Shown here: positions 41,145 through 60,786 of the stretch, piece after piece
Layout: every line of letters begins with the position of its first letter
Position numbering within the stretch: the first letter of the stretch is position 1
Assembly (NCBI GenBank): GCA_014859895.1
Contig: JACZKS010000106.1
Span: 28,260-92,259 of the forward strand
DNA length: 64,000 nt
Direction of reading: 5' to 3'
Origin: Rhodospirillales bacterium
GTDB taxonomy: Bacteria > Pseudomonadota > Alphaproteobacteria > Rhodospirillales > Shumkoniaceae
Translations under genes and position numbers: made by a program
The notes under the pieces: model-generated
Told to the model about the DNA's origin: nothing
Seen by the model: the letters and a program-made list of their open reading frames with translations, nothing else
Database searches by the model: none

Positions 41145-41930
41145 TCACAGCCGTTGAGCCGGGCAAAGAACGATCTCGATTCCGCTTTGCTCGAGCAGGC
41201 CGGCGACCGGTGCCGGCGGCGCGTTGTCGGTGAACAGCACCGAAACGTCCGTCAGGCTTCCCTGGGCGACGGTGGCTGTGCGCGAGAACTTTGTATGGTC
41301 GGCCACCAGCAGGACCTGGCGCCCGTTGCGCATCATGGCCTGGGCGACGCTGACCTCGTCGGGGTAGAAATCGAGAAGCGTGCCGTCCGTCTCGACGGCA
41401 CCGATGCCGATGATCGCATAGTCGGCGCGGTGCTGCTCGACGAACTGCGTCGCCTGGGGGCCGACGATGCCGCCGTTGTGGGGGCGAATCGTGCCGCCCG
41501 CCACCGACACGTCGAATTCGGCCTCGGCGTGCAGGATTTCGGCGGCGTGCAGGTTGTTGGTGATGATCTTGAGGCGGTGCCGCTTGAGCAGGGCGCGGGC
41601 CACCATTTCAGTGGTGGTGCCGATGCTCAGGAACAGCGATACGTTGTCGGGCAGGTAGCTGGCGACGGCCTCGGCGATGGCCTCTTTCTCGGCCAGGCAG
41701 GCCACTCGCTTGGCGGCATAATCGATTTTGACGATGCTCGACGGCAGGCCGGCACCACCGTGGTGGCGGACCAGCAGGTTGGCGTCGCACAGCTGCTGGA
41801 TATCGCGCCGGATGGTCTGCGTCGAAACGTTGAAATGCTCGGCCAGCACTTCGACCACGACGAAGCCGCGGCGCCGGACGATCTCGAATATGGCGTCTCG
41901 GCGTTGACGACCCTTCATCCGTCGAACCAT
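41145..41930 (-). CDS. DeoR/GlpR family transcriptional regulator
   Basis: RRDAIFEIVRRRGFVVVEVLAEHFNVSTQTIRRDIQQLCDANLLVRHHGGA; LFLSIGTTTEMVARAL. Confidence 0.9.
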   Translation of the reverse strand: MVRRMKGRQRRDAIFEIVRRRGFVVVEVLAEHFNVSTQTIRRDIQQLCDANLLVRHHGGAGLPSSIVKIDYAAKRVACLAEKEAIAEAVASYLPDNVSLFLSIGTTTEMVARALLKRHRLKIITNNLHAAEILHAEAEFDVSVAGGTIRPHNGGIVGPQATQFVEQHRADYAIIGIGAVETDGTLLDFYPDEVSVAQAMMRNGRQVLLVADHTKFSRTATVAQGSLTDVSVLFTDNAPPAPVAGLLEQSGIEIVLCPAQRL

Positions 41931-42073
41931 GGAGCGGGGACAAGCGGAACGGGCATTTTGGGATTTCCGAGGCTCCCTGAAAAGGCTTGGGCAAAACCTA
42001 CTCTCAAGTTCGGCAAACGTCAAAACGCCGATCGCCGGCATCGATGGCGGCGGCAGGCTGGGTCGGAGGCATC

Positions 42074-42970
42074 ATGAACCCGCTGGGATGTCATGCCTTG
42101 GTATGGGCTGGCGGCTGGAATGCCGATCAGGCAAGGAGGTCCGTCGCCGGCGTTGCCGAGGCCGGATTCGACTTCATCGAGATCCCTCTGCGCCGTCCCG
42201 CCGGCATCGACGTCCCGGCCACGGCGCGCCTGCTCGAAGATTTTGCTCTCAAGGCGGCCGGTGGCCTCGCGCTCGGCTTCGACACCAACATCGCCGACGA
42301 CGACGCCGAAACGGCCGGGCGCGGCGAGGCCCTGTTGAACGAGGCCATCTCGGTGGCGCGCGACCTTGGCGCCTTCCAGATCGCCGGTGTCCTCCACTCG
42401 GCGCTGGGAAAGTACGAACGCCCCGTTTCCGCCACCGCCAGTGCCCGTGCCGTCGAGGTCCTGGCCCGGGTCGCCGAAAGGGCGCGGGAAGCCGGGCTCG
42501 TTCTCGCCCTGGAGGCGGTCAACCGCTACGAAAACGCCCTGATCAACACCGCCGGGCAGGCCCTCGCCCTGGTTTCGGCCATCGGTGCGGCAAATGTCGG
42601 CGTCCACCTCGACACCTTCCACATGAACATCGAGGAAAACAACCCCGCAGCCGCCATCCGCTCCTGCGGCCGGCGGCTGTTCCACCTTCACGTCGGCGAG
42701 AGCCACCGCGGCTACCTCGGAACCGGTACGGTCGATTTCGGCGCCGTCTTCCGGGCCCTGGTGGAGATCGGCTACGATGGCCCCATCGCGCTCGAGAGCT
42801 TCTCCTCGGCGGTCATCGATCCGGGCCTTTCCCACCGGCTGGCCGTGTGGCGCGACCTGTGGACCGATAGCGCCGATGTGGCCGGTCACGCTAGGCGGTT
42901 CGTCGCGGCCGGCCTTGAACGGGCGCACCAGGCGGCAGGTGCCGGTATCGACGGCGGGAGGAGGGAATAG
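42074..42970 (+). CDS. Sugar phosphate isomerase/epimerase (AP-endonuclease-2 fold, ketose 3-epimerase-like)
   Basis: AGFDFIEIPLRRP, LALEAVNRYENALINTAGQAL, VHLDTFHMNIEENNP, FHLHVGESHRGYLGTGTVDF. Confidence 0.85.
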   Translation: MNPLGCHALVWAGGWNADQARRSVAGVAEAGFDFIEIPLRRPAGIDVPATARLLEDFALKAAGGLALGFDTNIADDDAETAGRGEALLNEAISVARDLGAFQIAGVLHSALGKYERPVSATASARAVEVLARVAERAREAGLVLALEAVNRYENALINTAGQALALVSAIGAANVGVHLDTFHMNIEENNPAAAIRSCGRRLFHLHVGESHRGYLGTGTVDFGAVFRALVEIGYDGPIALESFSSAVIDPGLSHRLAVWRDLWTDSADVAGHARRFVAAGLERAHQAAGAGIDGGRRE

Positions 42971-42974
42971 CGGG

Positions 42975-43883
42975 ATGGTTTCGGTCATCTGTCTGGGCAT
43001 CGCGGTTTTGGACGAGATCTTCGCGGTCCGCGAGATCCCGACCCGCCCGGGAAAATACTTCGCCAGCGACTATCGCTCCATCGGTGGCGGACCGGCCTCG
43101 ACGGCGGCGGTGGCGGCGGTGGCGATGGGCGCCCGGACGGCGTTGTGGGCGCGTGTCGGCGAGGATAGGACGGGCGAGCAGATCGTCGCGGAACTGGCCG
43201 GGTTCGGCGTCGATGTTGGGCACATCCGACGGCTCCCCGGGGGGCGCTCCGGGCTGTCGGCGGTTGTGGTGGATGCGTCCGGCGACCGGCTGACCATCAA
43301 TTTCGCCGATCCCGCCCTTGATGCCGACCCCGCATGGCTGCCCCTGGCAGGCGTGAAGGAGGCGGATGCCGTGCTCTGCGATTGCCGGTGGCCGGCCGGG
43401 GCCGAGGTCGTTCTCCGGCAAGCGCGGCAGGACGGGCGGATCGCATTGCTTGACGGCGACACCACGCCCGATACGGCGGTGAAGGTGTTGGCGCCCCTGG
43501 CCAGCCATGTCGCCTTTTCACAGGGCGGCTTGCAGCAGTTCAGCGGCGCGACGGAGCCGGAAGCGGGACTGCGGATGGCGCGGGAACGGATCTCCGGGTG
43601 GCTGTGCGTCACGCTTGGTCCCGATGGTTGCATGGTGCTGGAGGACGGCGTGATCCGCCACATCCCCGCCTTTCCGGTGGAAGCGGTCGACACTACAGGT
43701 GCCGGAGATGTTTTCCACGGGGCCCTGGCGGTTGCTCTGGCGGAAGGGCGGGATGCGATGGCCGCCGTGCAGTTCGCCAGCGCGGCGGCGGCCTTGAAAT
43801 GTATGCGGTTCGGTGGCCGCGCCGGGATTCCGGGCCGCATGGAGGTCGATGGCTTTCTGGCGCGCCGGCTCTCCGCCCGGTAA
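42975..43883 (+). CDS. PfkB family carbohydrate kinase
   Basis: ICLGIAVLDEIFAV, GGGPASTAAVAAVAMG, VDTTGAGDVFHGALAVALAEG. Confidence 0.88.
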   Translation: MVSVICLGIAVLDEIFAVREIPTRPGKYFASDYRSIGGGPASTAAVAAVAMGARTALWARVGEDRTGEQIVAELAGFGVDVGHIRRLPGGRSGLSAVVVDASGDRLTINFADPALDADPAWLPLAGVKEADAVLCDCRWPAGAEVVLRQARQDGRIALLDGDTTPDTAVKVLAPLASHVAFSQGGLQQFSGATEPEAGLRMARERISGWLCVTLGPDGCMVLEDGVIRHIPAFPVEAVDTTGAGDVFHGALAVALAEGRDAMAAVQFASAAAALKCMRFGGRAGIPGRMEVDGFLARRLSAR

Positions 43884-43906
43884 CCGGAAGAAGCGATCCG
43901 TGGCTC

Positions 43907-45028
43907 CTACTGGCTGCACCCGCGGGCCTGCACGCGCAGGATGCCGGAGACCTTTCCGCCGCGTATCGCGTACACCCGGTCGACCAGGTTACTGACGACG
44001 CAGGCGTGATTGGGAATGACGCGGATCTTGTCGCCGACGCTTGGCTGCCCGGTGCCATTCCCGAGATCGACGAATCCGTGCTCCTCGCTCAAGGCATGGA
44101 TGGACGCTTCCGGCAACTCGGGGATGAATCCGTGGCCGTCCAGGCCAAGAAGGTCGCTGGTCAACGCCTTCGACCCCGCGTCGATGATGGCGCGCCCGGC
44201 GGTCGGTCGGCTCACCACCGTCGCCAGGACGTTGAGCGCGCAATCCGCGACCGTGCACACCTTGCGGGCGATCAGAGAGCGGTCGTTGTAGATGTAGGTG
44301 CCTACCCGGTATTCGGTCACCGTATCCAGGTCTCCGGCCCCCCACATATCGGGCGTACCGCCGCTGCTGACGACGGGGCAGGGAAGGCCGTCTTCCTCGC
44401 ACAGGGCCTTGGCCTTGGCCAGCCAGTCAGCCGCCGCGCGGGCGGCGCCGGCTTTCGGATAGGTCATCAGGCCCTTGAAGCGCAGAGGGGACATCGCCGC
44501 GATGCGTCTGGCCAGATCGCGCGCCGCCTCCGGGCTTTGCACACCGCATCGTCCGGCCCCGGTATCGCATTCGACGAGGACGTCGAGCGGCCGTTCGGCC
44601 CCGGCCATGGCCTCGGCCAGGCCCGCAACGACGGTTTCGCTGTCGGCCGTCACCGTCAGGGCGCATCGCCCGGCCAAGCGCCGCAAGCGGGCCAGCTTGG
44701 CGGCGCCCAGGATGTTGAAGGTGATCAGGATGTCGGACATGCCGGCGTCGACCATCACCTCGGCTTCGCCGATCTTCTGGCAGTTGATGCCGACGGCGCC
44801 GGCCTTCATCTGCAAGGCCGCGAATTCCGGGATCTTGTGCGTCTTGATGTGGGGTCGCAGGCGAAGCCCATGCTCGTCGCAGTAGGCCTGGAACCGTCGC
44901 ACGTTGGCTTCGACCACGTCGAGGTCGACGATGACGGCGGGGGTGTCGACGGCGTTGAACGGTCGGCCGATGAGATCCAGGGAATTGTCGTCAAACGGGC
45001 GGGGGGATGTTGGCATGCGCTCTCTCAT
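43907..45028 (-). CDS. DSD1 / D-threonine-aldolase-like PLP enzyme (alanine racemase N-terminal fold, Zn-binding C-terminus)
   Basis: RPHIKTHKIPEFAALQMKAGAVGINCQKIGEAEVMVDAGMSDILITF; C-terminal PNHAC (His-x-Cys). Confidence 0.82.
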   Translation of the reverse strand: MRERMPTSPRPFDDNSLDLIGRPFNAVDTPAVIVDLDVVEANVRRFQAYCDEHGLRLRPHIKTHKIPEFAALQMKAGAVGINCQKIGEAEVMVDAGMSDILITFNILGAAKLARLRRLAGRCALTVTADSETVVAGLAEAMAGAERPLDVLVECDTGAGRCGVQSPEAARDLARRIAAMSPLRFKGLMTYPKAGAARAAADWLAKAKALCEEDGLPCPVVSSGGTPDMWGAGDLDTVTEYRVGTYIYNDRSLIARKVCTVADCALNVLATVVSRPTAGRAIIDAGSKALTSDLLGLDGHGFIPELPEASIHALSEEHGFVDLGNGTGQPSVGDKIRVIPNHACVVSNLVDRVYAIRGGKVSGILRVQARGCSQ

Positions 45029-45112
45029 GGCTCGAAATACCTGTCCGCGATCTTTTAGCACGCGTGAGCGGTGGGTTGACAGACGGTCGAACTCTATGCA
45101 GAGAATGCACCT

Positions 45113-45152
45113 GTGTCCACTATAACGAATTGATATCCGTTATTCCGGACAC
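45113..45152. promoter_or_regulatory. 40-bp nested dyad in divergent promoter
   Basis: GTGTCC-act-ATAACG-aattgatatc-CGTTAT-tcc-GGACAC. Confidence 0.6.
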
Positions 45153-45186
45153 ATCCCGGGGAACATCCAGTAGGAGATGACGAACC

Positions 45187-46032
45187 ATGATGAGAGGCAT
45201 TCCCAAACTGGTGGGGCTGTTGAGCGCCGTCGCCGTGCTGACGACCGGCGTCGCCAACGCCCAAACGAAGAGCAAGCTCGACGAGGTTCTGGCTCGCGGC
45301 AAGCTTATCGTCGGTACCGGCAGCACCAACGCCCCTTGGCATTTCATCGATCAGGGTGGCAAGCTATCGGGATTCGACGTCGACGTGGCCAAGATCGTGG
45401 CCAAGGCACTGTTCGACGATCCTGAAAAGATCGAGTTCGTCAATCAGTCGTCGGACTCGCGGATTCCGAACTTGACCACCAACAAGGTGGACATGACCTG
45501 CCAATTCATGACCGTGACCGGCGGCCGCGCCCAGCAGGTCGAGTTCACCATTCCCTATTATCGCGAAGGCGTCGGCCTGCTTCTGCTGGCCAACGGCAAG
45601 TACAAATCCTACCAGGACCTGAAAGCGGCCGGCAGCAAGGTCGTCGTTTCCGTCCTTCAGAACGTTTACGCCGAGGAGATGGTCCGTCAGGCGTTGCCCG
45701 AGGCCAAGGTCGACCAGTACGACAGTGTCGATCTGATCTATCAAGCCCTGAATTCCAACCGTGCCGACGCCACGGCGACCGACCAGTCGGCCCTGCGCTG
45801 GTTCATGAGCCAGAACCCCAACCGCTATCTCGATGCCGGATACGGCTGGAACCCCCAGACCTACGCCTGTGCGCTCAAGCGGGGTGATCAGACGTGGCTC
45901 AACTTCGTCAATACGGCGCTGCACGAGGCAATGACCGGCGTCGAGTTCGCTGCCTACGCGGCCTCGTTCAAGAAATGGTTCGGCGTAGAGCTTCCGCCGC
46001 CAGCCATCGGCTTCCCGGTCGAGTTCAAGTAG
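45187..46032 (+). CDS. Polar amino acid ABC transporter substrate-binding protein
   Basis: Signal peptide; GKLIVGTGSTNAPWHFIDQGGKLSGFDVDVAKIVAKALF. Confidence 0.88.
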   Translation: MMRGIPKLVGLLSAVAVLTTGVANAQTKSKLDEVLARGKLIVGTGSTNAPWHFIDQGGKLSGFDVDVAKIVAKALFDDPEKIEFVNQSSDSRIPNLTTNKVDMTCQFMTVTGGRAQQVEFTIPYYREGVGLLLLANGKYKSYQDLKAAGSKVVVSVLQNVYAEEMVRQALPEAKVDQYDSVDLIYQALNSNRADATATDQSALRWFMSQNPNRYLDAGYGWNPQTYACALKRGDQTWLNFVNTALHEAMTGVEFAAYAASFKKWFGVELPPPAIGFPVEFK

Positions 46033-46064
46033 ATCCACGACGAAATCTAGGCGGAGGCCGCGCC

Positions 46065-46727
46065 ATGGACTACCGGTTCAATTTCGACGCGGTGTGGCGG
46101 AGTTTCGATCTCCTGTTGGCGGGATTGGGGCTCGGCCTGGGGCTGGCGGTGATTTCCATCTTTCTCGGCAGCCTGATCGGCTTAGTCGCGGCCTTCGCCA
46201 TGATTTCCAGGAACTCACTATTGCGTGGAATTGCTGTCGTCTACGTCACGGCGATCCGCAACACGCCGATCCTGGTCCTCATTTTCTTTACCTTCTTCGC
46301 CTTGCCGCAGATGGGTGTCCGCCTGGGCAAGGTCGAATCCTTCGTCGTCACCCTGACCATCTATGCCGGGGCCTATCTCACCGAGGTTTTCCGCGGCGGG
46401 CTGATGGCCCTGCCGCGCGGTCTGCGCGAGGCCGGCCTGGCGATCGGCATGACCGAATGGCGGACCAATTTTTGGGTGATCATCCCGGTGATGATCCGCA
46501 ACGTGCTGCCGGCGCTCAGCAACAATTTCATTTCGCTTTTCAAGGATACCTCGCTGGCGGCGGCGATCGCCGTTCCCGAGCTGACGTTCTATGCCCGGCA
46601 GATCAACGTGAACAGTTTCCGGGTCATCGAAACCTGGATGGTGGCGAGCCTGATGTACGTCGCGGCCTGCTATGTGATCGCGGCGGGCCTCAGGCGCATC
46701 GAACGCAAGCTCGCGATCCCGCGGTAA
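46065..46727 (+). CDS. Amino acid ABC transporter permease
   Basis: HisM-type: AIRNTPILVLIFFTFFALPQMGVRL...LREAGLAIGMTEWRTNFWVIIPVMIRNVLPALSNNFISLFKDTSLAAAI. Confidence 0.88.
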   Translation: MDYRFNFDAVWRSFDLLLAGLGLGLGLAVISIFLGSLIGLVAAFAMISRNSLLRGIAVVYVTAIRNTPILVLIFFTFFALPQMGVRLGKVESFVVTLTIYAGAYLTEVFRGGLMALPRGLREAGLAIGMTEWRTNFWVIIPVMIRNVLPALSNNFISLFKDTSLAAAIAVPELTFYARQINVNSFRVIETWMVASLMYVAACYVIAAGLRRIERKLAIPR

Positions 46728-46738
46728 GGGGCGACGCC

Positions 46739-47398
46739 ATGGAATTCACCCAATTTCTCAATGAGCTGTGGATCGCTCGCGGCGCGTTGTGGCAAGGCCT
46801 TCAGCTGACGATCGCCGTATCGGTGCTGGCCATCGTCTTGGGTACGGTGCTCGGGCTCTTCGTCGGCATGGTGCTGGTCTATGCGTGGCGGCCGTTCAAG
46901 CTGCTGGTCCGCCTGTACGTCGACTTCATCCGCGGCACCCCGGTCTTCGTGCTGGTGCTGGCCTCATTCTATATCCTGTCGGTGATCGGCATTCAGCTCA
47001 CAGCTTTCCAGGCGGGGGTGCTGGCCATAACGGTCTTCTGCAGTTCGCATGTCGGCGAGATGGTGCGCGGCGCGCTGCAGGCCATCCACCGGGGGCAGAC
47101 CGAAGCGGCGATGGCCATCGGCCTGACCTTCCGCCAGACCTTCCAGTACGTCCTGATGCCCCAGGCCCTGCGTCAGATCCTGCCGACCTGGGTCAACGCC
47201 GCGACCGAGATGGTCAAGGCCTCGACCCTGCTCTCGGTGATCGGGGTGGCCGAGTTGCTGCTTTCCACGCAGCAGGTCATCTCGCGCAATTTCCTGAGCC
47301 TGGAATTCTACTTCTTCGCCGGACTCATCTATTTTGTTCTCAATTTTTCCATCGAGCGGTTCGGGCGTCATCTCGAACGCCGGCTCGCCGTTTATTGA
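46739..47398 (+). CDS. Amino acid ABC transporter permease
   Basis: YVDFIRGTPVFVLVLASFY...TEAAMAIGLTFRQTFQYVLMPQALRQILPTWVN. Confidence 0.88.
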   Translation: MEFTQFLNELWIARGALWQGLQLTIAVSVLAIVLGTVLGLFVGMVLVYAWRPFKLLVRLYVDFIRGTPVFVLVLASFYILSVIGIQLTAFQAGVLAITVFCSSHVGEMVRGALQAIHRGQTEAAMAIGLTFRQTFQYVLMPQALRQILPTWVNAATEMVKASTLLSVIGVAELLLSTQQVISRNFLSLEFYFFAGLIYFVLNFSIERFGRHLERRLAVY

Positions 47399-47424
47399 CC
47401 CCGTGAGCAACGGAATGGACCGCC

Positions 47425-48192
47425 ATGGCTGACCCGCTTCTGGTTATCGAGAACCTCCACAAGAAATTCGACCATCTCGAGGTGTTGCGCGGGGTCGACC
47501 TTCGGATGAATGGCGGCGACGTGGTGTCGATCATCGGCTCCAGCGGGTCGGGCAAGACGACCCTGTTGCGCTGCGTCAACCTGCTGGAGGACTTCCACGA
47601 GGGACGCATCGTCGTCGATGGACAGGAAATCGGCTACGCGGTGAAGGGAGGCCGGCGGGTGCGATTGCCCAACTCCATCGTCGCCAGGCACCGCGCACTC
47701 ACCGGCATGGCGTTCCAGACCTTCAACCTGTTTCCCCATCTCAGCGCGCTCGGGAACGTCACGCTCGGTCTGATCAGGGTGCGCGGCATGAAGAAGGACG
47801 AGGCGGTGGCGATCGCCGAGCGCTGGCTCGACCGGGTTGGCCTTCTTGAGCGTCGGAACCACTATCCGGGCCAGCTTTCGGGCGGCCAGCAGCAACGGGT
47901 GGCCATTGCGCGGGCCATCGCCATGAACCCCAAGTTGATGCTGTTCGACGAGGTGACGTCGGCGCTCGATCCCGAACTGGTCAACGAGGTGCTGAACGTC
48001 ATCAAGGATCTCGCCCGTGACGGCATGACCATGCTGATCGTTACCCACGAGATGAAGTTTGCCTATGAGGTGTCGACCCGCATCATTTTCATGAACGAAG
48101 GCCGGATCGGCGAGGAAGGCCCGCCATCCGAGGTATTCAACAATCCGAAGACGCCACGGCTGGCCGAATTTCTCAAGAACAGCTCGTTCTGA
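47425..48192 (+). CDS. Amino acid ABC transporter ATP-binding protein
   Basis: [54 protein letters not shown]. Confidence 0.92.
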
Positions 48193-48226
48193 GGCCGGCC
48201 GGCGGAACAAGACGAAGGAGGGACTT

Positions 48227-48616
48227 ATGACAATCAAAAGGTACGGCAGCGGTCAGAAAGGTACCGGCGGCAGCCCGTTGCCCTTTGCCCGGGCGGTCGA
48301 GGCGGACGGTTGGCTCTATGTATCGGGACAGGTGGCGATGGTCGACGGCCGGGTCATTGACGGCGGCATCGTCGTCCAGGCCCACCAGGCGATCAAGAAC
48401 GTCATCGCCATCCTCAAGGAGGCCGGCTATGGGCCCGAGCACGTGGTACGGGCTGGCGTGTGGCTCGACGATGCCCGCGATTTCGCGGCCTTCAACGCGG
48501 TTTACGCCGAGTATTTCGCAGACAATCCGCCAGCCCGCGCTTGCGTGCAGTCCTCGATGATGGTCGACTGCAAGGTCGAGATCGACTGCATCGCCTACAA
48601 GGCGAAGGGCGGATGA
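48227..48616 (+). CDS. RidA family (YjgF/YER057c/UK114) protein, copy 1
   Basis: SPLPFARAVEADGWLYVSGQVAMVDGRVIDGGIVVQ...RACVQSSMMVDCKVEIDCIAYK. Confidence 0.87.
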   Translation: MTIKRYGSGQKGTGGSPLPFARAVEADGWLYVSGQVAMVDGRVIDGGIVVQAHQAIKNVIAILKEAGYGPEHVVRAGVWLDDARDFAAFNAVYAEYFADNPPARACVQSSMMVDCKVEIDCIAYKAKGG

Positions 48617-48639
48617 CGTCTTCAGGAAGGTAAAGCCAA

Positions 48640-49479
48640 ATGGACAAGCGTGTCGGGGGAGGAGGCAAAGTTCGGATGGAGGCCATCGAGAAACCGGGAT
48701 CGGATGCCGAGAACGGGCGGCGCGCCCGTGGCATCGATCGGGTCGTCCACATTCTCGACTACCTCTATCGCCAGGGCCGCCCCTTGAGGGTGAACGAAAT
48801 CGCCAAGGGAATCGGGGCGCCGCGTTCCACCGTTTACGAGATCGCCGACCATCTGCTGCAAGAGCAGATGCTGGAGGTTTTCGACGACGAGGGGCGCGTT
48901 TTCCTGGGCCGCCGGCTTTATTTCTACGGGCTGGCCTACACGGAGCGCTTCGACCTGACGCGCGAGGCTGGCAAGCATCTCAAGACCCTGACCGAGAAGA
49001 CCGGCGAGACCTCGCAGCTCTGCGTGATGCAGGGCAACAAGTACGCCGTCATCATGATGGATCACGGTGTCCGCCACTTTAAAATCAGCAGCAACGTCGG
49101 TGAGACCATTGCCTTGCCGTGGACGGCGTCGGGACGGCTTCTGGTTTCCCACCTGACAGACGGGGAAATCCTGAAGCTGATCCCGGAGGAGGATTTCATC
49201 CTTCCCGACGGCAGGCCCTTGCCAACGACGAAGTTCCTGGCCGAGGTGCGTGCCGCCGGCGATGTCGGGTTCTTCTCGTGCGACACCATCGTCGACAGCT
49301 ATACCCATTGTTTCGCCGCCGCCGTCATCAATGAAAAGCGGGAATGCGTCGCCACCCTTTGCCTGGTGGTGCCGCGCGAGGACGCTTACCGGCGATTCGA
49401 TGCGCTGAAGGCGGCCCTGACCGGCGAGGCGGAGGCGTTGTCCGATGTCCTGAGAGGAGGACACTCGGCCCTGGCGTGA
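48640..49479 (+). CDS. IclR family transcriptional regulator
   Basis: IDRVVHILDYLYRQGRPLRVNEIAKGIGAPRSTVYEIADHLLQEQML. Confidence 0.87.
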   Translation: MDKRVGGGGKVRMEAIEKPGSDAENGRRARGIDRVVHILDYLYRQGRPLRVNEIAKGIGAPRSTVYEIADHLLQEQMLEVFDDEGRVFLGRRLYFYGLAYTERFDLTREAGKHLKTLTEKTGETSQLCVMQGNKYAVIMMDHGVRHFKISSNVGETIALPWTASGRLLVSHLTDGEILKLIPEEDFILPDGRPLPTTKFLAEVRAAGDVGFFSCDTIVDSYTHCFAAAVINEKRECVATLCLVVPREDAYRRFDALKAALTGEAEALSDVLRGGHSALA

Positions 49480-49513
49480 GCCGGCAAGGCCGGTGCGTCC
49501 GGAGGAGACGGAA

Positions 49514-50713
49514 ATGACGGCTGAAGAGCTTTTCCGGCGATACGGATTGACGCGTGTCATCAATGCATCGGGAACGATGACCTCGCTTGGTGCCTCGCGG
49601 GTGATTCCCGAAGCGATCGAGGCCGGCGCCGCCATCCAGTCCGAATTCGTGCGCATCGATGAACTGCAGGCCCGGGCCAGCCGCGTCATCGCCCGGCTCA
49701 CCGGGGCCGAGGCAGGCTTCGTCGCCGCATGCAGCGCCGCGGGCATGAGCCAAAGCGTCGCCGCCTGCGTGACGGGGGCGAACCTGGCGCGCATCGAGCG
49801 TCTTCCCGACGTCGAGGGGCTGCCCGACGAGGTGCTCGTCCAGGCCGGCCATCTGGTGCATTACGGGGCACCGATCGAGCAGTCGGTCACGATCACCGGG
49901 GCCCGGGTGGTGCCATTGGGCACGGCGGCCCGGGTCGAGGCCTTCCACCTTGAGGACCGCATCGGCGAAAAAACCGCCGCCGCCCTGTTCGTGGTGTCCC
50001 ATCATGTGGTGCAGGAAGGCCAGATGCTGCTGGCCGACTTCGTCGCCATCTGCAAAGGGCGGGGCGTGCCCGTCATCGTTGACATGGCCAGTGAATACGA
50101 CCTGACCGGCCCCATCGCCCTGGGGGTCGACCTCGTCGTCTACAGCGGCCACAAGTTCCTGGGCGGGCCCACCGCCGGCATCGTCGCCGGCCGCAAGGAT
50201 CTGGTGCGCGCGGCCTATCTCCAGAACCGCGGAATCGGCCGTCCGATGAAGGTCGGCAAGGAAGGCGTCGTCGGCACCATGGCGGCCCTCGAAGCCTGGG
50301 AACGGCGCGACCACGCCGCCGCGCGCGAGCGCGAGCTTGCCAATGTCCGCCATTGGATGGAGGCCCTGGCCGGCGTGCCGGGCCTGCGGCTGGACATCCA
50401 CCCCGATTGGACGGGCAATCCCATCGATCGGCTGAAAATCACGGTCGTTGCCAAGGAGGCCGGGCTGCACGCCTGGGAACTGGCCGATCGGTTGGCCTCC
50501 GGGCGTCCGTCGATCCAGGTGCGCGACGACCTCATCGAGCATGGCTGTTTCTTCCTCGATCCCTGCAACCTGACCGCCGAGGAAGCGGCAATCGTCGGAC
50601 GGCGGATCGAAGAAGAGGTGGCGTCGGCGCAACGTCGGGGCGATGGCTTGGTCGTCAGCCTTTCCGAGCGGCGGAAAGGCCGGGTCGAAGCCGGTCTCAA
50701 ATGGCCTGACTGA
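49514..50713 (+). CDS. SelA-like PLP-dependent enzyme (D-glucosaminate-6-phosphate ammonia-lyase-like family)
   Basis: YGLTRVINASGTMTSLGASRV...ASRVIARLTGAEAGFVAACSAAGMSQSVAACVTG...VDLVVYSGHKFLGGPTAGIVAGRKDLV. Confidence 0.8.
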   Translation: MTAEELFRRYGLTRVINASGTMTSLGASRVIPEAIEAGAAIQSEFVRIDELQARASRVIARLTGAEAGFVAACSAAGMSQSVAACVTGANLARIERLPDVEGLPDEVLVQAGHLVHYGAPIEQSVTITGARVVPLGTAARVEAFHLEDRIGEKTAAALFVVSHHVVQEGQMLLADFVAICKGRGVPVIVDMASEYDLTGPIALGVDLVVYSGHKFLGGPTAGIVAGRKDLVRAAYLQNRGIGRPMKVGKEGVVGTMAALEAWERRDHAAARERELANVRHWMEALAGVPGLRLDIHPDWTGNPIDRLKITVVAKEAGLHAWELADRLASGRPSIQVRDDLIEHGCFFLDPCNLTAEEAAIVGRRIEEEVASAQRRGDGLVVSLSERRKGRVEAGLKWPD

Positions 50714-50762
50714 GCCCGGCGGCGGCTATCCCAACTCCCCAAGTTGACCTTGCCAACCCGGG

Positions 50763-50822
50763 ATGTCCGCGATATCGTTCATGTGTCCGACTTGTTAGAT
50801 TTATGTCCGAAATATCGGACAT
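50763..50822. promoter_or_regulatory. TGTCCG repeat array with terminal palindrome upstream of peptide ABC operon
   Basis: TGTCCG at 50764, 50784 and 50804 (exactly 20-bp spacing); the last is within ATGTCCGA-AATA-TCGGACAT (50803-50822). Confidence 0.65.
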
Positions 50823-50891
50823 ATCCGCCCGGCGCATGGAGGTGCGGCGCGGCGTGTCGGCAGAGAGGTTCATCAGGAAAGGGGAAAGACG

Positions 50892-52445
50892 ATGAAATCG
50901 TCTGTGCGATCGCTTCTTGTCACTGCCGTGGCCGGCGCGGTGTTCACCGCCGGCTGCGGGACTGTCTGGGCGCAGCAACCGGCCACCAAGGATAGCGTCG
51001 TCATCGTGGCCACCGTCGGCGAGCCGCCGACCCTCGATCCGGTCGGCGTGACCGCCGACCTCGTCAGCATCATCACCCAGCACGTGTTCGAGACCCTCTA
51101 TACCTTCGACAAGGAATGGAAGGTGATGCCGCTTTTGGCTTCCGGCATGCCGGTGCTGTCGGCCGACGGCAAGACGTTTACCATTCCGTTGCGCAGCGAT
51201 GTGAAATTCCAGGACGGCACGACAATGACGGCGGACGACGTGGTGGCGTCGCTCGACCGCTGGACGAAGGTTTCGCCGCGCGGCAAGACGACCACGTCGG
51301 CCATCGAGTCGATCACCGCGAAAGATGCCAATTCCGTCGTCATCGGGCTCAAGACCCCCTTGGCGCCGCTGACCTCGTTGCTGGCCATGAACAACGGCGC
51401 CGCGGCGATCATGCCGAAATCGGTCATCGACGGGACCAATGCCGTGAAGTCGCTGGTCGGCACCGGCCCCTACAAGATCCTGGAGCACAAGCCTGATCAG
51501 TACATCCGCCTGGTTCGTTTCGACGGCTACGTGTCGCCCGCGGGCGAGGCCAACGGCTACGGCGGCAAGCGGGTCGCCAAGATCAACGAGATCCGCTTCG
51601 TTCCGGTGCCCAACGCGACGACGCGCGTCGAAGGCATGGTCGCCGGCCAGTATCATTTCGCCGACTCGCTGCCGGCCGAAATGCTGCCGCGCCTCAAGGA
51701 TGCCAAAGGCGTGAAGGCGATTGTGGTGAAGCCGTTCGGTTTCCCGCTGATGATCATGAACAGCAAGACGGGCGTCTTTACCAACCAGAGCCTGCGCCAG
51801 GCGGTGCTGGCCGCTCTCGGCCCCAAGGACATGCTGCTTGCCGCCTTCGGCGATCCCGGCTTCTTTGCGCTCGAAGGCTCGGTCTATGCGCCGGGCACGG
51901 CCTTTTACGACGAGGACAGCGCCAAGACCTACAACCAGAACAATCCCAAGAAGGCGGCGGATCTGTTGAAGGCTGCCGGCTACAAGGCCGAGCCGGTCCG
52001 CATCCTGACTTCCACCCAGTACGACTTCCTCTACAAGATGAGCCTGGTCGCCCAGGCCCAGCTTGAACAGGCCGGTTTCAAGGTGGATCTCCAGGTTCTC
52101 GACTGGGCGACGCTGATGCAGAAGCGCGGCGACGAAAAGCAGTGGGATGCCTTCTTCACCTACCACACTTTCGTTCCCGAGCCTTCGCTGATCACCTTTG
52201 TCAACCCGGCCTACCCGGGCTGGTGGGATACGCCGGAAAAGCGCGAAGCGCTCGCCGCGTTCAACACCGAGATGGACCCGGCCAAGCGCAAGGCCAAGTG
52301 GACGGCCTTGCAGGGCCTGTTCTATACGCAGGTTCCGACCATCAAGGTGGGCGAGTTCTACAACCTCGCGGCTTCCAGTGATAAGCTGAAAGGCTACGTG
52401 CCGATGCCGTGGCCGTTCTTCTGGAACGCCGAGATCGCCAACTGA
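50892..52445 (+). CDS. Peptide/dipeptide ABC transporter substrate-binding protein (family 5)
   Basis: GEPPTLDPVGVTADLVSIITQHVFETLYTFDKEWKVMPLLA...LRSDVKFQDGTTMTADDVVASLDRW. Confidence 0.9.
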   Translation: MKSSVRSLLVTAVAGAVFTAGCGTVWAQQPATKDSVVIVATVGEPPTLDPVGVTADLVSIITQHVFETLYTFDKEWKVMPLLASGMPVLSADGKTFTIPLRSDVKFQDGTTMTADDVVASLDRWTKVSPRGKTTTSAIESITAKDANSVVIGLKTPLAPLTSLLAMNNGAAAIMPKSVIDGTNAVKSLVGTGPYKILEHKPDQYIRLVRFDGYVSPAGEANGYGGKRVAKINEIRFVPVPNATTRVEGMVAGQYHFADSLPAEMLPRLKDAKGVKAIVVKPFGFPLMIMNSKTGVFTNQSLRQAVLAALGPKDMLLAAFGDPGFFALEGSVYAPGTAFYDEDSAKTYNQNNPKKAADLLKAAGYKAEPVRILTSTQYDFLYKMSLVAQAQLEQAGFKVDLQVLDWATLMQKRGDEKQWDAFFTYHTFVPEPSLITFVNPAYPGWWDTPEKREALAAFNTEMDPAKRKAKWTALQGLFYTQVPTIKVGEFYNLAASSDKLKGYVPMPWPFFWNAEIAN

Positions 52446-52453
52446 CGACGCTG

Positions 52454-52486
52454 GCCGGGGACGGGGCGTCAGGCCTCGTCCCCGGC
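52454..52486. other. Perfect 10-bp-arm hairpin between peptide SBP and permease genes
   Basis: GCCGGGGACG-N13-CGTCCCCGGC. Confidence 0.75.
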
Positions 52487-52511
52487 TTCCGGCCCTATCT
52501 GGGACGCACCC

Positions 52512-53453
52512 ATGCTTACCTACATCCTGCGTCGACTGGTCGGCATGTTCATCGTGATGCTGATCGTCGCCGCCGTGGTCTTCATCATCGCCCGGGTCAT
52601 ACCCGGCGACCCGGCCGCCGTCATGCTGGGTTCGGCGGCGACGCCCGAGGATGTGGCGGCGTTGCGGGCGCGGATGGGCCTGGATCAGCCGTTCCTGACC
52701 CAGTTCACCCTCTACCTGAAGCAGATCGTTACCTTCGATCTGGGTGATTCCATCTTCCTCAACCGCCCGGTCACCCAGGCGCTGGCCGAGCGTGCCGAGC
52801 TCACCACCTTCCTGACGCTGATGTCGGTCGGTATCGCCGTCGCCATCGGCGTGCCGATTGGCATCGTATCGGCGGTCAAGCGCGGCCGGCTCGTCGATCA
52901 GGGGACAGTGGCGCTGGCCATGCTGGCGGCCAGCGTGCCGAGTTTCTGGATCGGCCTGACCCTGATCCGCTATCTGGCGGTCGATGTACCCTGGTTTCCG
53001 GTTGCCGGCTACGGTCCGCCGGGCGCCTCGCTCGCCGAACGCCTTCACCACCTGGTGTTGCCGGCGATCGCGCTGGGCATCCCCAATTCGGCCCTCATCT
53101 TGCGCTTTACGCGCACCAGCATGCTCGACGTCATGAACGAGGACTACGTGCGTACCGCGCGGGCCAAGGGGCTGCCGCCGCTGACCGTGATCCTGAAACA
53201 CGCGCTGCGCAACGCGCTCATTCCAATCCTGACGATCATCGGCTTGACCATCGCCGTCATGATCGCCGGCGCCATCGTCACCGAAACGGTGTTCGGTCTG
53301 CCCGGTGTCGGCAATCTGGTAGTGTCTGCGGTGCTGCGGCGCGATTACCCCGTGATCCAGGGGGCCCTTCTGGTGGTGTCGGGTCTTTACGTGCTGATCA
53401 ATCTGGCGGTCGACCTTCTTTATGCCGTCGTCGATCCGCGCGTGCGGTACTGA
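52512..53453 (+). CDS. Dipeptide ABC transporter permease (DppB-like)
   Basis: MLTYILRRLVGMFIVMLIVAAVVFIIARVIPGDPA; DYVRTARAKGLPPLTVILKHALRNALIPILT. Confidence 0.92.
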   Translation: MLTYILRRLVGMFIVMLIVAAVVFIIARVIPGDPAAVMLGSAATPEDVAALRARMGLDQPFLTQFTLYLKQIVTFDLGDSIFLNRPVTQALAERAELTTFLTLMSVGIAVAIGVPIGIVSAVKRGRLVDQGTVALAMLAASVPSFWIGLTLIRYLAVDVPWFPVAGYGPPGASLAERLHHLVLPAIALGIPNSALILRFTRTSMLDVMNEDYVRTARAKGLPPLTVILKHALRNALIPILTIIGLTIAVMIAGAIVTETVFGLPGVGNLVVSAVLRRDYPVIQGALLVVSGLYVLINLAVDLLYAVVDPRVRY

Positions 53454-53461
53454 GGGGACTC

Positions 53462-54367
53462 ATGACAAACGAATCCCCCGTCCTTGCCGCCCCGAAACCC
53501 CGCAAGTCCGGTTTTTTCGAAAGCCGGTCCCCCACCGCCATGCTGCTGCGCCAATTGGGGAGGCGCCCTCTGACCCTGATCGCGGCTGGTCTGCTGGCCG
53601 CCGTCGTCGTCATCGCCCTCTTCTCGCCGTGGCTTACGCCTTACGATCCGATGAAGATGGACATTCTCAACCGCCTCAAGCCCCCGACCACCGCGCATTG
53701 GCTGGGCACCGACGAATTCGGCCGCGACGTTCTCGCCCGCATCATGCTGGGGGCGCGCCTCTCCCTGCTGGTCAGCTTCCTGGTGGTGATCTTCGCCACC
53801 GTCATGGGAACACTGCTGGGCCTGCTGGGCGGTTACGTGCGGGCGCTCGACGGCGTGCTGATGCGTTTCACCGATGCGCTGATGGCGTTTCCCGACATCC
53901 TGCTGGCCATTGCCTTCCTGGCGGCGCTGGGCCCCTCGCTGTTCAATGTCGTTCTGGCGTTGGGTGTCGTCTACACGCCGCGGGTGGCCCGTGTCGTGCG
54001 CGCCGCCACGCTGGTGATCCGCGAACTGCCGTTCGTCGAGGCGGCGACCGCGCTTGGCGTATCAACGCCGCGTATCATCCGGGTGCACGTACTGCCAAAC
54101 CTGATGTCGCCGATCATTGTCCAGGCGACGTTCATCTTCGCCTTCGCCATCCTGACGGAAGCGGCGCTGTCGTTCCTCGGTGTCGGAGTGCCGCCGACGA
54201 CGCCGACATGGGGCAACATGATCGCCGGCGCCCAACAGTACATCCGCCAGGCCGATTGGCTGATCCTCTTTCCCGGCTTCGCCATCGTGCTGACCGTTCT
54301 GGCGCTTCAGATGGTCGGCGACGGCCTGCGCGATGCCTTGGACCCCCGTTTGCAGAAGGTCACATGA
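53462..54367 (+). CDS. Dipeptide ABC transporter permease (DppC-like)
   Basis: HWLGTDEFGRDVLARIMLGARLSLLVSF; ALSFLGVGVPPTTPTWGNMI. Confidence 0.92.
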   Translation: MTNESPVLAAPKPRKSGFFESRSPTAMLLRQLGRRPLTLIAAGLLAAVVVIALFSPWLTPYDPMKMDILNRLKPPTTAHWLGTDEFGRDVLARIMLGARLSLLVSFLVVIFATVMGTLLGLLGGYVRALDGVLMRFTDALMAFPDILLAIAFLAALGPSLFNVVLALGVVYTPRVARVVRAATLVIRELPFVEAATALGVSTPRIIRVHVLPNLMSPIIVQATFIFAFAILTEAALSFLGVGVPPTTPTWGNMIAGAQQYIRQADWLILFPGFAIVLTVLALQMVGDGLRDALDPRLQKVT

Positions 54368-55974
54368 TGACAGATTCCCCTATTCTCATCCGCCAGGCCC
54401 GCATCATCGACGGCACCGGGGCGCCGTGGTGGCGGGGCGACGTGCGGGTGGTCGACGGTCATATTGCCGAAGTCGGCGCCCGGCTCGACGCCGGCGAGGC
54501 GGCGGTGATCGAGGCCGACGGGCGTTATCTGGCGCCCGGCTTCATCGATACCCACGCCCACGACGATCTCGTCTACCTTCGCCAGCCTGACCGCCCGGAG
54601 AAGGTGAGCCAAGGCGTCACCTCCGTCGTCGTCGGCAACTGTTCGTTCGGGCTCTATCCGCAGGTTCCGGCCAGCGCCGCTCATTTACGCGACCATTTTG
54701 GTTCGCTGTTGGGCACCGTGCGCGAGGGCGAAAGCTTCGAGGATTTCGATGCCTATTGCCGGGCCCTCGAAAAGCCGGGTATCGCCATCAATCTGCTGTC
54801 CCTGGTCGGCCACGCCGCCCTCAGGCTCGCCGTCCTCGGATGGGAACAGCGCCCGGCCACAGAGGACGAACGTGAAGCCATGGCTGCCTTGCTCGACGCT
54901 CAGTTGAGCCAGGGGGCGCACGGCCTGTCCATCGGCCTCGTCTATCCGCCGAGCGCCTGGGCGGATACCGCCGAGCTGGTCCGACTGGCCGAGGTCGTGG
55001 CTTCCCACCAAGCCCTGCTGGCCGCTCACGTGCGGTCCTACGAGGGGGGATTGATCTCCTCGGTCGACGAGTTCCTGGCGCTGCTCAAGGCCGGCGGGGC
55101 CAACGGGCTGCTTTCCCATCTTCAAGCGGCGGGCCGGCCGTATTGGGGAAGCGTGCCCGCCGCCATCGAGCGCCTGGAGACGGCGCGCCGGGACGGCATC
55201 GACGTCAGTTTCGACATGTACCCCTATCCGGCCGGTTCCAGCACCATCCTCCAGCTGTTGCCGCCATCCGCCCAGGCCGGTGGCATCGAAGTCCTGCTTG
55301 CACGCCTCGCCGACGATATAGAGTGTGAAAAGCTACGGCGGGCCGTCGAGACGGGCGAGGCGCCGAACGATCCGGGATGGGAATCCAAGGTGCTTCTGAT
55401 CGGCTGGGAGAACGTCCGCATCGGCGGCGTCGGCAACGACGCGCTCAAGGCCGTCGAGGGACGCTCCCTGACCGACATCGCGGCCAGTCGGGGAACCACA
55501 CCGTTCGATGCGGTCGTCTGGCTGATCCAGGAAGATCGGGGCCGCACCAACATCGTCATGTTCCAATTGGACGAGAAGGACTTGCGGTCGGCCCTGACCC
55601 ATCCGCTGCACATGCTGGGCTCCGACAGCCTGCCGCGCGAAGGCGGCAAGCCGCACCCACGGGCTTTCGGCAGCTTTCCGCGCTACATCGGCCACTGCGC
55701 CAGGGACCTGGGCTGGCTTTCGATCGAGGAGGCGGTCCGCCACATGACCGCCGTCCCGGCGCAGCGCTTCGGCCTGCTTGACCGTGGCTTGGTGCGACCC
55801 GGATTGGTCGCCGATCTCGTCCTGTTCACCGACGCGCTGACCGATTGCGCGACCTTCGAGGAGCCAACCCACTTGCCCAAGGGGATCACGGACGTTCTCG
55901 TCGCCGGCACCTTCCTGCTGCGCGACGGGATGCCGACCGGGGCCCGCCCCGGGCGGGTCCTCAAACGCCATTAA
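54364..55974 (+). CDS. N-acyl-D-amino-acid deacylase / D-aminoacylase family amidohydrolase
   Basis: LIRQARIIDGTGAPWWRGDVRV, LAPGFIDTHAHDDL, QGVTSVVVGNCSFGLYP, GSDSLPREGGKPHPRAFGSFPRYIG. Confidence 0.9.
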   Translation: MMTDSPILIRQARIIDGTGAPWWRGDVRVVDGHIAEVGARLDAGEAAVIEADGRYLAPGFIDTHAHDDLVYLRQPDRPEKVSQGVTSVVVGNCSFGLYPQVPASAAHLRDHFGSLLGTVREGESFEDFDAYCRALEKPGIAINLLSLVGHAALRLAVLGWEQRPATEDEREAMAALLDAQLSQGAHGLSIGLVYPPSAWADTAELVRLAEVVASHQALLAAHVRSYEGGLISSVDEFLALLKAGGANGLLSHLQAAGRPYWGSVPAAIERLETARRDGIDVSFDMYPYPAGSSTILQLLPPSAQAGGIEVLLARLADDIECEKLRRAVETGEAPNDPGWESKVLLIGWENVRIGGVGNDALKAVEGRSLTDIAASRGTTPFDAVVWLIQEDRGRTNIVMFQLDEKDLRSALTHPLHMLGSDSLPREGGKPHPRAFGSFPRYIGHCARDLGWLSIEEAVRHMTAVPAQRFGLLDRGLVRPGLVADLVLFTDALTDCATFEEPTHLPKGITDVLVAGTFLLRDGMPTGARPGRVLKRH

Positions 55975-56009
55975 ACCTGCCGACTTCCGGGAAAGAGAGA
56001 ACAAAAATC

Positions 56010-56396
56010 ATGACCAAGCGTACGCCGATTTTCGCCAAGGACGGTGCCAAGCCGGCCGGCCAGTACAGTCACGCGATCGTTGCCAACGGCTTCGTCTTCG
56101 TCTCGGGCCAGGGGCCGCATGATCCGAAAACCGGTCAGCTTCCGCCGGATTTCGCGGGTGAGGTCAGGCAGGCCATCCGCAACATGGAGACCATCCTCGA
56201 AGCCGCCGGCACCGACCTTGCCCACGTGGTTCGGGTCACCGGGTACCTGGCCGATCTCGGCAACTTCAAGGCCTACAACGATGTCTACAAGGAGTTCTTC
56301 GCCGCCGAGCCGCCGAGCCGCACCACGATCGGCTGCCAGCTCAACGGCATCCAGGTGGAAATCGACTGCATCGCCATGTTGCCGGACGGCAAGTGA
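56010..56396 (+). CDS. RidA family protein, copy 2
   Basis: GQYSHAIVANGFVFVSGQGPHDPKTGQLP...PSRTTIGCQLNGIQVEIDCIAML. Confidence 0.9.
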   Translation: MTKRTPIFAKDGAKPAGQYSHAIVANGFVFVSGQGPHDPKTGQLPPDFAGEVRQAIRNMETILEAAGTDLAHVVRVTGYLADLGNFKAYNDVYKEFFAAEPPSRTTIGCQLNGIQVEIDCIAMLPDGK

Positions 56397-56423
56397 GAGG
56401 CGATCGCGGCGCCGCGCAACAGG

Positions 56424-57442
<1,019 letters not shown>

Positions 57443-57446
<4 letters not shown>

Positions 57447-58432
57447 TGCCGGCCTCGCTGGAACCGCTGCTTCGGGTTCGCGGCCTCGCCAAGCATTTCC
57501 CCGTGCGCGGCGGCCTGCTTCAGCGGCCGGTTGGCTGGGTCAAGGCGGTGGACGACGTGTCGTTCGACGTCAACCGCCACGAGGTCCTCGGTCTGGTCGG
57601 TGAATCCGGTTCGGGCAAGACGACGGCGGGCCGCGCCATCCTGCGGCTGATCGAACCGACCGCCGGGTCGGTTCAGTTCGACGGCCAGGAGATCACCGGC
57701 TTGCCTCCCCACGAGATGAGGATGCAGCGGCGGCGCATGCAGATCATCTTCCAGGACCCTTATGCCAGCCTCAACCCGCGCCAACGGGTGCGCGAACTGA
57801 TCGGCGAGGCCTTCATCGTGCATGGCATCGGCACGCCCCACGACCGCCGCGACCGCACGGCCGCGCTGCTCGAAAAGGTCGGGTTGATGGCCGACGCCAT
57901 GGACCGCTACCCGCACGAATTCTCGGGCGGCCAACGCCAGCGAATTGGCATCGCCCGGGCGCTCGCCGTGGCGCCCGATTTCATCGTTGCCGACGAACCG
58001 GTGTCAGCGCTCGACGTCTCGGTCCAGGCCCAGGTCATCAACCTGCTGCGCGACCTGCAGCGGGAGTTGGGGCTTTCGCTGCTGTTCATTGCCCACGATC
58101 TGGCGGTGGTGCGTTTCATCAGCGACCGCGTGGCCGTGATGTATTTGGGGCGCATCATGGAGATGGCGTCGAGCACGCGGCTCTATGAACGGCCGCGCCA
58201 CCCTTACACGCTGGCCCTGATGTCGGCCGCCCCCACCCCCGACCCGGACGCCAAGCGTGACCGCATCCTTCTTGAAGGCGACATCCCGAGCCCGCTGAAT
58301 CCGCCGACCGGCTGCGTCTTTCGGACACGTTGCCGCTTCGCCACGCCCGCCTGCGCAATGGCGGAGGCCCGGAACCTGCGGGAAGTCGAGCCCGGTCACT
58401 TCGTCTCGTGCATCCGCGACGACATCGCCTGA
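57443..58432 (+). CDS. Peptide ABC transporter ATP-binding protein (DppF-like)
   Basis: [60 protein letters not shown]. Confidence 0.92.
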
Positions 58433-58438
58433 AAAGCT

Positions 58439-59362
58439 TCAGTCAGACCGCAGTCGGCCAAGCATTGCCGGGTGGGGTGCCGGTGGAACCGCGGGGTTCG
58501 GCTGAACAAGGGCGGAAAGCAGGGCTTCGACCATGGCCATCTTCTTGCATCGGCGCAGGGTGACGACGCCCAGTTCCCGATAGAACGACGCGTCCCCGAA
58601 GGGAATGAAGCGGATCCGTTCGCGGTCGGGGCCGCGGACGTAAAGTTCAGGGACGACGCCGACTCCAAGCCCGGCGGAAACCATCAAAAGAATGCTCTCG
58701 AAGGTATCGAGTTCCATCTCCGGGACGATGCGGAGGCCGCGCTTTTCGATTTCGCGATCGATGCGATGCTCGACCGGAAGGTTGGGCACAAAACGCAAAT
58801 AGGGACCGGCGGAGAGAAGGTCGGAGGCCGTCGTGCCCGGCGTGTCTCTCGGGGCGATCACGAAGAACCGTTCGATGGCGTAGGGCCGCCAGAACAGGTC
58901 GCCGTCGACGTCCGGCGGACCGACGATCAGGGCGGCATCCAGTTGTCCTACCTGCACGTCACCGGTCAGGTCCTTGGACAGTCGACCGCTGTTGATCAGA
59001 TGCAGGACCAGATGGGGAAAGGTTTGCTTGAGGGACCGCAGGGCCGTCGGAAGAACGCCGGTCAAGGCGCTGCGCACGGCGCCGACGACGAGTGTGCCCC
59101 TGATGTCGGTGTGGCAATGGGTTTCGAGAAACGAGCGGTGCAGCGCCAGCATGGCGCGGGCCGTCTCCACGTACGCTTGCCCATGGCGCGTCAGCTTGGG
59201 GGGACGGCTGTCGCGGTTGAACAGCGGGATCCCGAGTTGGCCTTCAAGTTCCCGCATTTGTTGGCTGACCGCCGATTGCGTCAGGTTCACCACCTTCGCG
59301 GCCTTCGAGAACGAGCCATAGTCGGCGATGGCCACTAGGCTTTCCATTCTTCGCAGATCCAT
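58439..59362 (-). CDS. LysR family transcriptional regulator
   Basis: MDLRRMESLVAIADYGSFSKAAKVVNLTQSAVSQQMRELEGQLGIPLFNRD. Confidence 0.9.
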   Translation of the reverse strand: MDLRRMESLVAIADYGSFSKAAKVVNLTQSAVSQQMRELEGQLGIPLFNRDSRPPKLTRHGQAYVETARAMLALHRSFLETHCHTDIRGTLVVGAVRSALTGVLPTALRSLKQTFPHLVLHLINSGRLSKDLTGDVQVGQLDAALIVGPPDVDGDLFWRPYAIERFFVIAPRDTPGTTASDLLSAGPYLRFVPNLPVEHRIDREIEKRGLRIVPEMELDTFESILLMVSAGLGVGVVPELYVRGPDRERIRFIPFGDASFYRELGVVTLRRCKKMAMVEALLSALVQPNPAVPPAPHPAMLGRLRSD

Positions 59363-59400
59363 GGTTTGGCCTTCTTTCGTCTATCCGGGAAACGAGCATA

Positions 59401-59418
59401 ATTATAAGGAGCTCTAAT
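59401..59418. promoter_or_regulatory. Candidate LysR-type box in the divergent lysR/aminotransferase promoter
   Basis: ATTA-TAAGGAGCTC-TAAT, AT-rich interrupted dyad in the divergent intergenic region. Confidence 0.35.
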
Positions 59419-59583
59419 GAAAATCGTTAAATAAAATCGATATCATTAATTTATTGAGTGCATGTAGCCTTCTTGCGGATATCGGAGGACTGGCCAGAGG
59501 AGTCCGGTTCCCGATCGCGCCAACGAACAGGAAGCGGGGATGAACATGGTCCGTAGAGCTTCCGGGATTGCAGGGGAACGACC

Positions 59584-60786
59584 ATGAACGTGATTGCCCA
59601 ACACATGAGCGCCGTAAAGCAATCGGCGGCTTCCTCGGTGGCGGCGGTGGCGGCGGAGCTGGTGCGCCAGGGACACGACGTGATCCGCCTGTCGGCCGGC
59701 GAGCCCGATTTCGCCACGCCGGACCACGTCCAACTGGCCGGCATTCGCGCCATCATCGAGGGCAAGACGAAGTACCCGCCGATCCCCGGCATCCTTCCGT
59801 TGCGCGAGGCCATCTGCCGGAAGCTTGAGCGGGACAACGGCCTCAAGTACGGTCCCGAACAGATCATCGCCGGCGCCGGCTGCAAGCAGGTCATCTACAA
59901 CGCGTTGGGGGTGACCCTCGATCCCGGTGACGAGGTCGTGATCCCGGCGCCGTATTTCGGCTGCTACGTCGATCAGACGACGCTCAACCGCGGGGTGCCC
60001 GTGGTGGTCGAAACCACCCAGGCGAACGGCTTTCGGCTGATGCCGGAGCAGTTGGAAGCGGCCATTACGCCGCGCACCAAATGGCTCATCCTCAATGCGC
60101 CCAATAATCCGTCGGGGGCCGTCTACCGGCCCGAGGACCTCAAGGCGGTTGCCGAGGTTCTGCGCCGTCATCCGCAAGTGTGGCTGCTGTCGGACGACAT
60201 CTATGAACACCTCATCTACGAGGGGGCCGTCTTCCATTCGATCCTTGAGTTCGCTCCGGATCTGGCCGAGCGGACGCTGGTGGTGAACGGCTTTTCCAAG
60301 ACCTACAGCATGACCGGCTGGCGGCTGGGTTATGGCGCGGGGCCGGTCGGGCTCATCAAGAACATGGTCAAGCTGCAATCGCAGTCGACCAGCGGCGCCT
60401 GCTCCATTTCGCAATGGGCGGCGGTCGCGGCGCTCGAGGGGGATCACGGATTCGTCGCCAAAAACCGCGCGGTGTTCCAGCAGCGGCGCGACCTGGTGGT
60501 TGCCAAGGTCAACGCCATCGAGGGCTTGTTCTGCCTGTCGCCGGAAGGGGCCTTCTACGTTTTCGTGTCCTGCGCCGGCCTGCTGGGGCGTTCCACGCCG
60601 GAGGGAAAGGTGTTGGAGACGGAGGCCGATGTCGTCGAGTTCCTGCTGCACCAAGCCCATGTTGCGGTGATTCACGGGGCCTCGTTCGGCCTGTCGCCGT
60701 TCTTCCGGATCTCGTTTGCCGCCAAGACCGAACAGTTGGAAGAAGCCTGCCGGCGCATTGCCGAGGCCTGTTCCCGGCTGACGTAG
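59584..60786 (+). CDS. Class I/II PLP-dependent aminotransferase (AspC-like)
   Basis: VIRLSAGEPDFATPDHVQLAG, LNAPNNPSGAVYRPEDLKAVAEVL, VNGFSKTYSMTGWRLGYGAGP. Confidence 0.9.
   Translation: MNVIAQHMSAVKQSAASSVAAVAAELVRQGHDVIRLSAGEPDFATPDHVQLAGIRAIIEGKTKYPPIPGILPLREAICRKLERDNGLKYGPEQIIAGAGCKQVIYNALGVTLDPGDEVVIPAPYFGCYVDQTTLNRGVPVVVETTQANGFRLMPEQLEAAITPRTKWLILNAPNNPSGAVYRPEDLKAVAEVLRRHPQVWLLSDDIYEHLIYEGAVFHSILEFAPDLAERTLVVNGFSKTYSMTGWRLGYGAGPVGLIKNMVKLQSQSTSGACSISQWAAVAALEGDHGFVAKNRAVFQQRRDLVVAKVNAIEGLFCLSPEGAFYVFVSCAGLLGRSTPEGKVLETEADVVEFLLHQAHVAVIHGASFGLSPFFRISFAAKTEQLEEACRRIAEACSRLT

Follow-up and report, generated by a model that had tools for sequence, protein, structure and literature searches.

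Predicted operators of the IclR family

Among the group 1 operators of the IclR family, Suvorova and Gelfand (2021, PMC8222616) describe the NGT-12-ACN subgroup, which follows the consensus NGTYCRAW4TYGRACN and which they report as frequent in sugar and sugar-acid regulons; they also note tandem IclR sites 18-22 nt apart in 94 orthologous groups. The locus considered here lies in a 64-kb stretch of DNA from a Rhodospirillales bacterium (64,000 nucleotides, referred to below as the window), in which related elements precede an amino-acid ABC importer and a peptide-type ABC importer. At the peptide importer, TGTCCGAAATATCGGACA at 50804-50821 agrees with the published consensus at every position, whereas the dyad at 45134-45151 (TATCCGTTATTCCGGACA) departs from it. 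Both sites of the window have their dyads 20 bp apart, as do 41 of 46 promoters of orthologous loci, and this spacing falls within the 18-22 nt range. The predicted targets, on the other hand, are amino-acid and peptide importers and not sugar or sugar-acid regulons.

The three-box sites of PcaU, PobR and HmgR are similar in that a palindrome is accompanied by an external direct half-site, of which there is one at the amino-acid importer (45114) and two at the peptide importer (50764 and 50784), and the PobR motif TTGTCCGATSATCGGACAR is nearly identical in sequence to the palindrome found here. By contrast, the gap is 6 in the window and 5 in these systems, the peptide promoter has two extra direct half-sites, and the position is likely that of a repressor. 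BhcR, which regulates the beta-hydroxyaspartate cycle, is an activator with a putative site upstream of the -35 box (PMC11323563). It provides the best NCBIfam match to the IclR protein of the window, and a BhcC-like aldolase gene adjoins the site here; however, the match reaches 56.5 bits against a cut-off of 350 for the BhcR model (NF045644), so that identity with BhcR was rejected, and the site in the window lies on or after the probable -10 box. The site is thus a predicted operator that is conserved, but its kind is already known for the IclR family; what is least usual in the system is its array of three dyads.

Two related elements upstream of two importers

The predicted peptide-importer operator (50763..50822, + strand) comprises three tandem IclR-type dyads with a 20-bp period, with left half-sites at 50764, 50784 and 50804 and a strong inverted half-site at 50816-50821. 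An earlier note on this DNA had described three TGTCCG copies spaced exactly 20 bp apart, the last of which forms a palindrome, and both features are present: the copies lie at 50764-50769, 50784-50789 and 50804-50809, and ATGTCCGA-AATA-TCGGACAT occupies 50803-50822 (in full ATGTCCGAAATATCGGACAT, with the fit to the IclR consensus in 50804-50821). The pattern TGTCCG-N8-CGGACA that was proposed for a genome scan proved wrong; it has zero matches in the genome because the inner gap between the third TGTCCG and the inverted copy CGGACA is 6 bp. With this gap, TGTCCG-N6-CGGACA has a single match without mismatches in the 5.1-Mb genome, which is the palindrome of the peptide promoter. The 20-bp spacing, taken earlier as about two helical turns on a common DNA face, amounts to about 1.9 turns, and the dyads would therefore be oriented to nearly one side.

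The hexamer itself is rarer than expected in the window, with 28 occurrences compared with about 47 expected, and no other hexamer has three copies at a 20-bp period there. When periods from 8 to 40 are allowed, triple-copy hexamers occur at only five further positions in the 64 kb, with periods of 24 and 30 bp.

A second predicted operator lies upstream of the amino-acid importer (45112..45153, + strand) and is kept in orthologues. It consists of TGTCCA (45114-45119), TATCCG 20 bp further on (45134-45139), a gap of N6 and CGGACA (45146-45151). The TGTCC/GGACA outer arms that had been noted at 45113-45152 are real, but what had been taken for a single dyad is better read as two tandem dyads with a 20-bp period. 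Judged by its half-sites, this element is a putative operator of the same type as the peptide-promoter array. In each array of the window the gene-proximal dyad is strong, while the remaining dyads retain mostly their left half-site and have a degenerate right arm. The layout is that of a row of group-1 IclR dyads (TCCG-N6-CGGA) with one strong dyad beside the gene and either one (amino-acid) or two (peptide) dyads upstream of it.

A search of the whole 5.1-Mb genome for the composite TGTCC-N15-TGTCCG-N6-CGGACA with up to three mismatches returned one exact match, at the peptide promoter, and one match with a single mismatch, at the amino-acid promoter; there were none with two mismatches and 17 with three. 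The frequency of the motif at these promoters as opposed to elsewhere, on which the earlier reading had been made to depend, is thus in its favour, as only these two promoters come within one mismatch of the composite. Chance occurrence at both importers is excluded by this genome-wide frequency. The related idea that the palindrome serves as a hairpin of the 5' leader RNA draws on its position downstream of a probable promoter and on the fact that RNA folding is possible; however, direct repeats at a strict 20-bp period form no mutual hairpins and are yet conserved across two classes, and no terminator-like site was found. Taken together, a leader hairpin or chance repeats are extremely improbable explanations.

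The probable regulator and the neighbouring genes

The amino-acid importer genes (binding protein, permeases and ATPase; 45187..48192, + strand) are followed on the same strand by a gene for a RidA-family protein (48227..48616) and, in the same gene row, by the gene of an IclR-family regulator (48640..49479), the probable binder of both elements. From this same-strand packing, the importer-RidA-IclR row is inferred to be one operon, and the operator at 45112-45153 precedes it, as for an autoregulated IclR operon. The IclR gene is separated from the peptide operator by the gene of a DgaE/SelA-like PLP enzyme (49493..50713, +), and the peptide-type importer operon (50892..58432, +; its extent inferred from gene packing) contains an N-acyl-D-amino-acid-deacylase-like gene (54370-55974) and a second RidA-like gene. 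A D-threonine-aldolase/BhcC-like gene (43907..45061, - strand) diverges from the amino-acid importer and shares the intergenic region with the operator in many orthologous loci; it is possibly also under the control of the 45112-45153 site.

The regulator has both IclR domains, HTH_IclR (PF09339, 40.9 bits, cut-off 22) and IclR_C (PF01614, 44.3 bits, cut-off 24), with Arg at position 62 in the recognition helix. Placement in the PcaR/PcaU/PobR subfamily was rejected, as the score against TIGR02431 (33.5 bits) is far below the cut-off of 284.75. A search of the literature brought up no paper that names a regulator for these genes.

Conservation across genomes

Both operators are retained in a congener, and the peptide array is kept in genomes G001 and G003. 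In G003, which belongs to another genus, the IclR gene and the peptide importer are divergently arranged, with TGCCCA-20-TATCCG-20-TGTCCG-N6-TGGACA in the stretch that separates them. The orthologue of the amino-acid importer, together with a DgaE-like gene, is found there on a contig other than that of the IclR gene and the peptide operon, and it retains the operator directly upstream (L165 8272-8305, contig C35). As the sites of these two unlinked importers are the only two matches to the common pattern in the G003 genome, linkage alone is insufficient to account for the pairing.

The wider comparison covered 80 named loci of orthologues in Alphaproteobacteria and Pseudomonas. The TGTCCG four-box score was discarded for distant orthologues, to which it does not transfer because their boxes read TTCCG; the core common to them and the window is TCCG-N16-TCCG-N6-CGGA. 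Across 46 non-redundant promoters that precede the orthologous amino-acid importer, and with no spacing preselected, TCCR pairs occur 20 bp apart 44 times and at any other spacing from 6 to 60 no more than five times, while the largest count at any spacing in 200 shuffles was six. TCCR-N16-TCCR-N6-YGGA is present in 41 of the 46. At dyads with an exact AT core, an upstream TCCG lay at offset 20 in 9 of 22, a small sample. Strict matches in the 80 loci lie upstream of importer, RidA, IclR or D-amino-acid genes in 60 of 64 cases, a count in which a palindromic site may register once per strand, so that the separate sites are fewer.

The pattern also follows the regulator. Among 318 genomes of the order to which the window belongs, it is present in 22 of the 23 that have a close orthologue of the IclR protein compared with 15 of 295 others; the placing of three genomes with a 37-39% identical relative in the latter group was decided once the pattern had been searched for. 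The Fisher p of 4e-23 overstates the evidence, since genomes of one genus do not count as independent and some of these loci had contributed to defining the pattern. IclR relatives in the genome contigs were found by an alignment-based scan, a single-sequence scan having found none.

These data bear on the question of whether some other protein is the binder. The genome contains 11 IclR-like matches and the peptide operon is followed by a LysR gene (58439-59362), so that another IclR paralogue or this LysR protein could be proposed; against this, the pattern follows the orthologue of the protein encoded at 48640-49479 across genomes, it stands beside that orthologue in distant loci without the rest of the gene set of the window, and the palindrome is of the published IclR type. 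Binding by another regulator is therefore rated as very unlikely. The earlier proposal that one regulator, probably the intervening IclR protein, links both importers gains support from the comparative evidence and from the fit to the IclR-family consensus (PMC8222616), because the composite is found at just these two promoters, tracks the IclR orthologue, persists where the importers are unlinked and varies with a recognition-helix residue, the last in few lineages. As far as can be judged from sequence, the TGTCCG repeats very probably serve as the binding site of the IclR-family repressor encoded nearby, which would place the two nutrient importers under joint control.

Promoters and the proposed mode of control

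A consensus scan places a probable promoter TTGCCA-N17-TATCGT at 50750..50778 (+ strand), with the -10 box overlapping the first dyad of the peptide array, and a similar arrangement of promoter and dyads is readable in G001 and G003. For the amino-acid-importer operon a probable -35 box TTGACA lies at 45076..45081 (+ strand), and the window, the congener and most of the orthologues inspected all have TTGACA 5' of the tandem site in their amino-acid promoter. The -10 box of this operon is weak, and the promoter elements of both operons are consensus guesses. The operators probably sit on or just 3' of the -10 boxes, a position that fits repression by promoter occlusion as the most likely mode of action.

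In the preferred model, adjacent IclR dimers would occupy nearly one face of the DNA and make up a tetramer, joined by one further dimer where the peptide promoter has three dyads. The bound protein would cover the -10 box and the start region and thereby repress both operons, which for the amino-acid importer/RidA/IclR operon would include negative autoregulation, until it is released by a small-molecule effector, which might be a D-amino acid, an N-acyl-D-amino acid or a keto-acid product. There is good confidence in this overall reading, in which the IclR protein encoded at 48640-49479 has its operators in both elements and represses the importer/RidA/IclR and peptide operons in an effector-released manner.

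The same protein might instead activate both operons, or activate one and repress its own, like PcaU and BhcR. Activators and dual regulators do exist in the IclR family, three-box sites of the PcaU type look similar, and BhcR is an activator (PMC11323563); yet the operators here lie on or after the probable -10 box, whereas the putative activator site of BhcR is upstream of -35, which makes activation rather unlikely.

Gene content and the three-dyad array

The deacylase-like, D-threonine-aldolase-like, DgaE-like and RidA genes point to the use of D-amino acids or N-acyl-D-amino acids; the deacylase-like protein is near N-acyl-D-glutamate deacylase. The region 41145-60786, with a PfkB-type kinase, the D-threonine-aldolase-like gene, the DgaE-like lyase, the N-acyl-D-amino-acid-deacylase-like gene and two RidA copies, looks like a D-amino-acid or amino-sugar-acid catabolic island. 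The ong cluster for an oxidised chitin sugar (PMC9537276) shares the enzyme classes D-aminoacylase, D-amino-acid deaminase fold, RidA and sugar kinase, but its regulator is of the MurR/RpiR type and its inner-membrane importer belongs to the SSS family, in contrast to the ABC importers found here.

The comparison yields an exact predicted operator for an IclR group that spans Thalassospira and Telmatospirillum to Rhizobium and Pseudomonas, and a testable regulon of two importers, two RidA copies, a deacylase, a PLP lyase and perhaps a D-aldolase. A more speculative proposal is that this group is an undescribed regulator of D-amino-acid/N-acyl-D-amino-acid (possibly amino-sugar-acid) scavenging that coordinates two different ABC importers, and that the three-dyad array, which two genera retain, takes up more protein than a single tetramer and makes for a steeper switch than the two-dyad amino-acid promoter; this is regarded as possible but doubtful. 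Two-dyad and three-dyad operators offer a natural comparison for one regulator.

At position 62 of the IclR protein, Arg goes with GTCC operators and Lys or Thr with TTCC, with few exceptions. A link between residue 62 and the operator base G or T is suggestive only, because the covariation amounts to about two changes on the tree and a single origin remains compatible with it; the test on independent pairs had one or two pairs and was without power.

In five Pseudomonas loci (L109, L145, L152, L155 and L159) an extra inverted half-site, seen as a second match on the minus strand, is found 20 bp gene-proximal of the dyad, at about 6290-6400 (about 3776 in L109), which suggests that these loci may also carry a three-dyad array.
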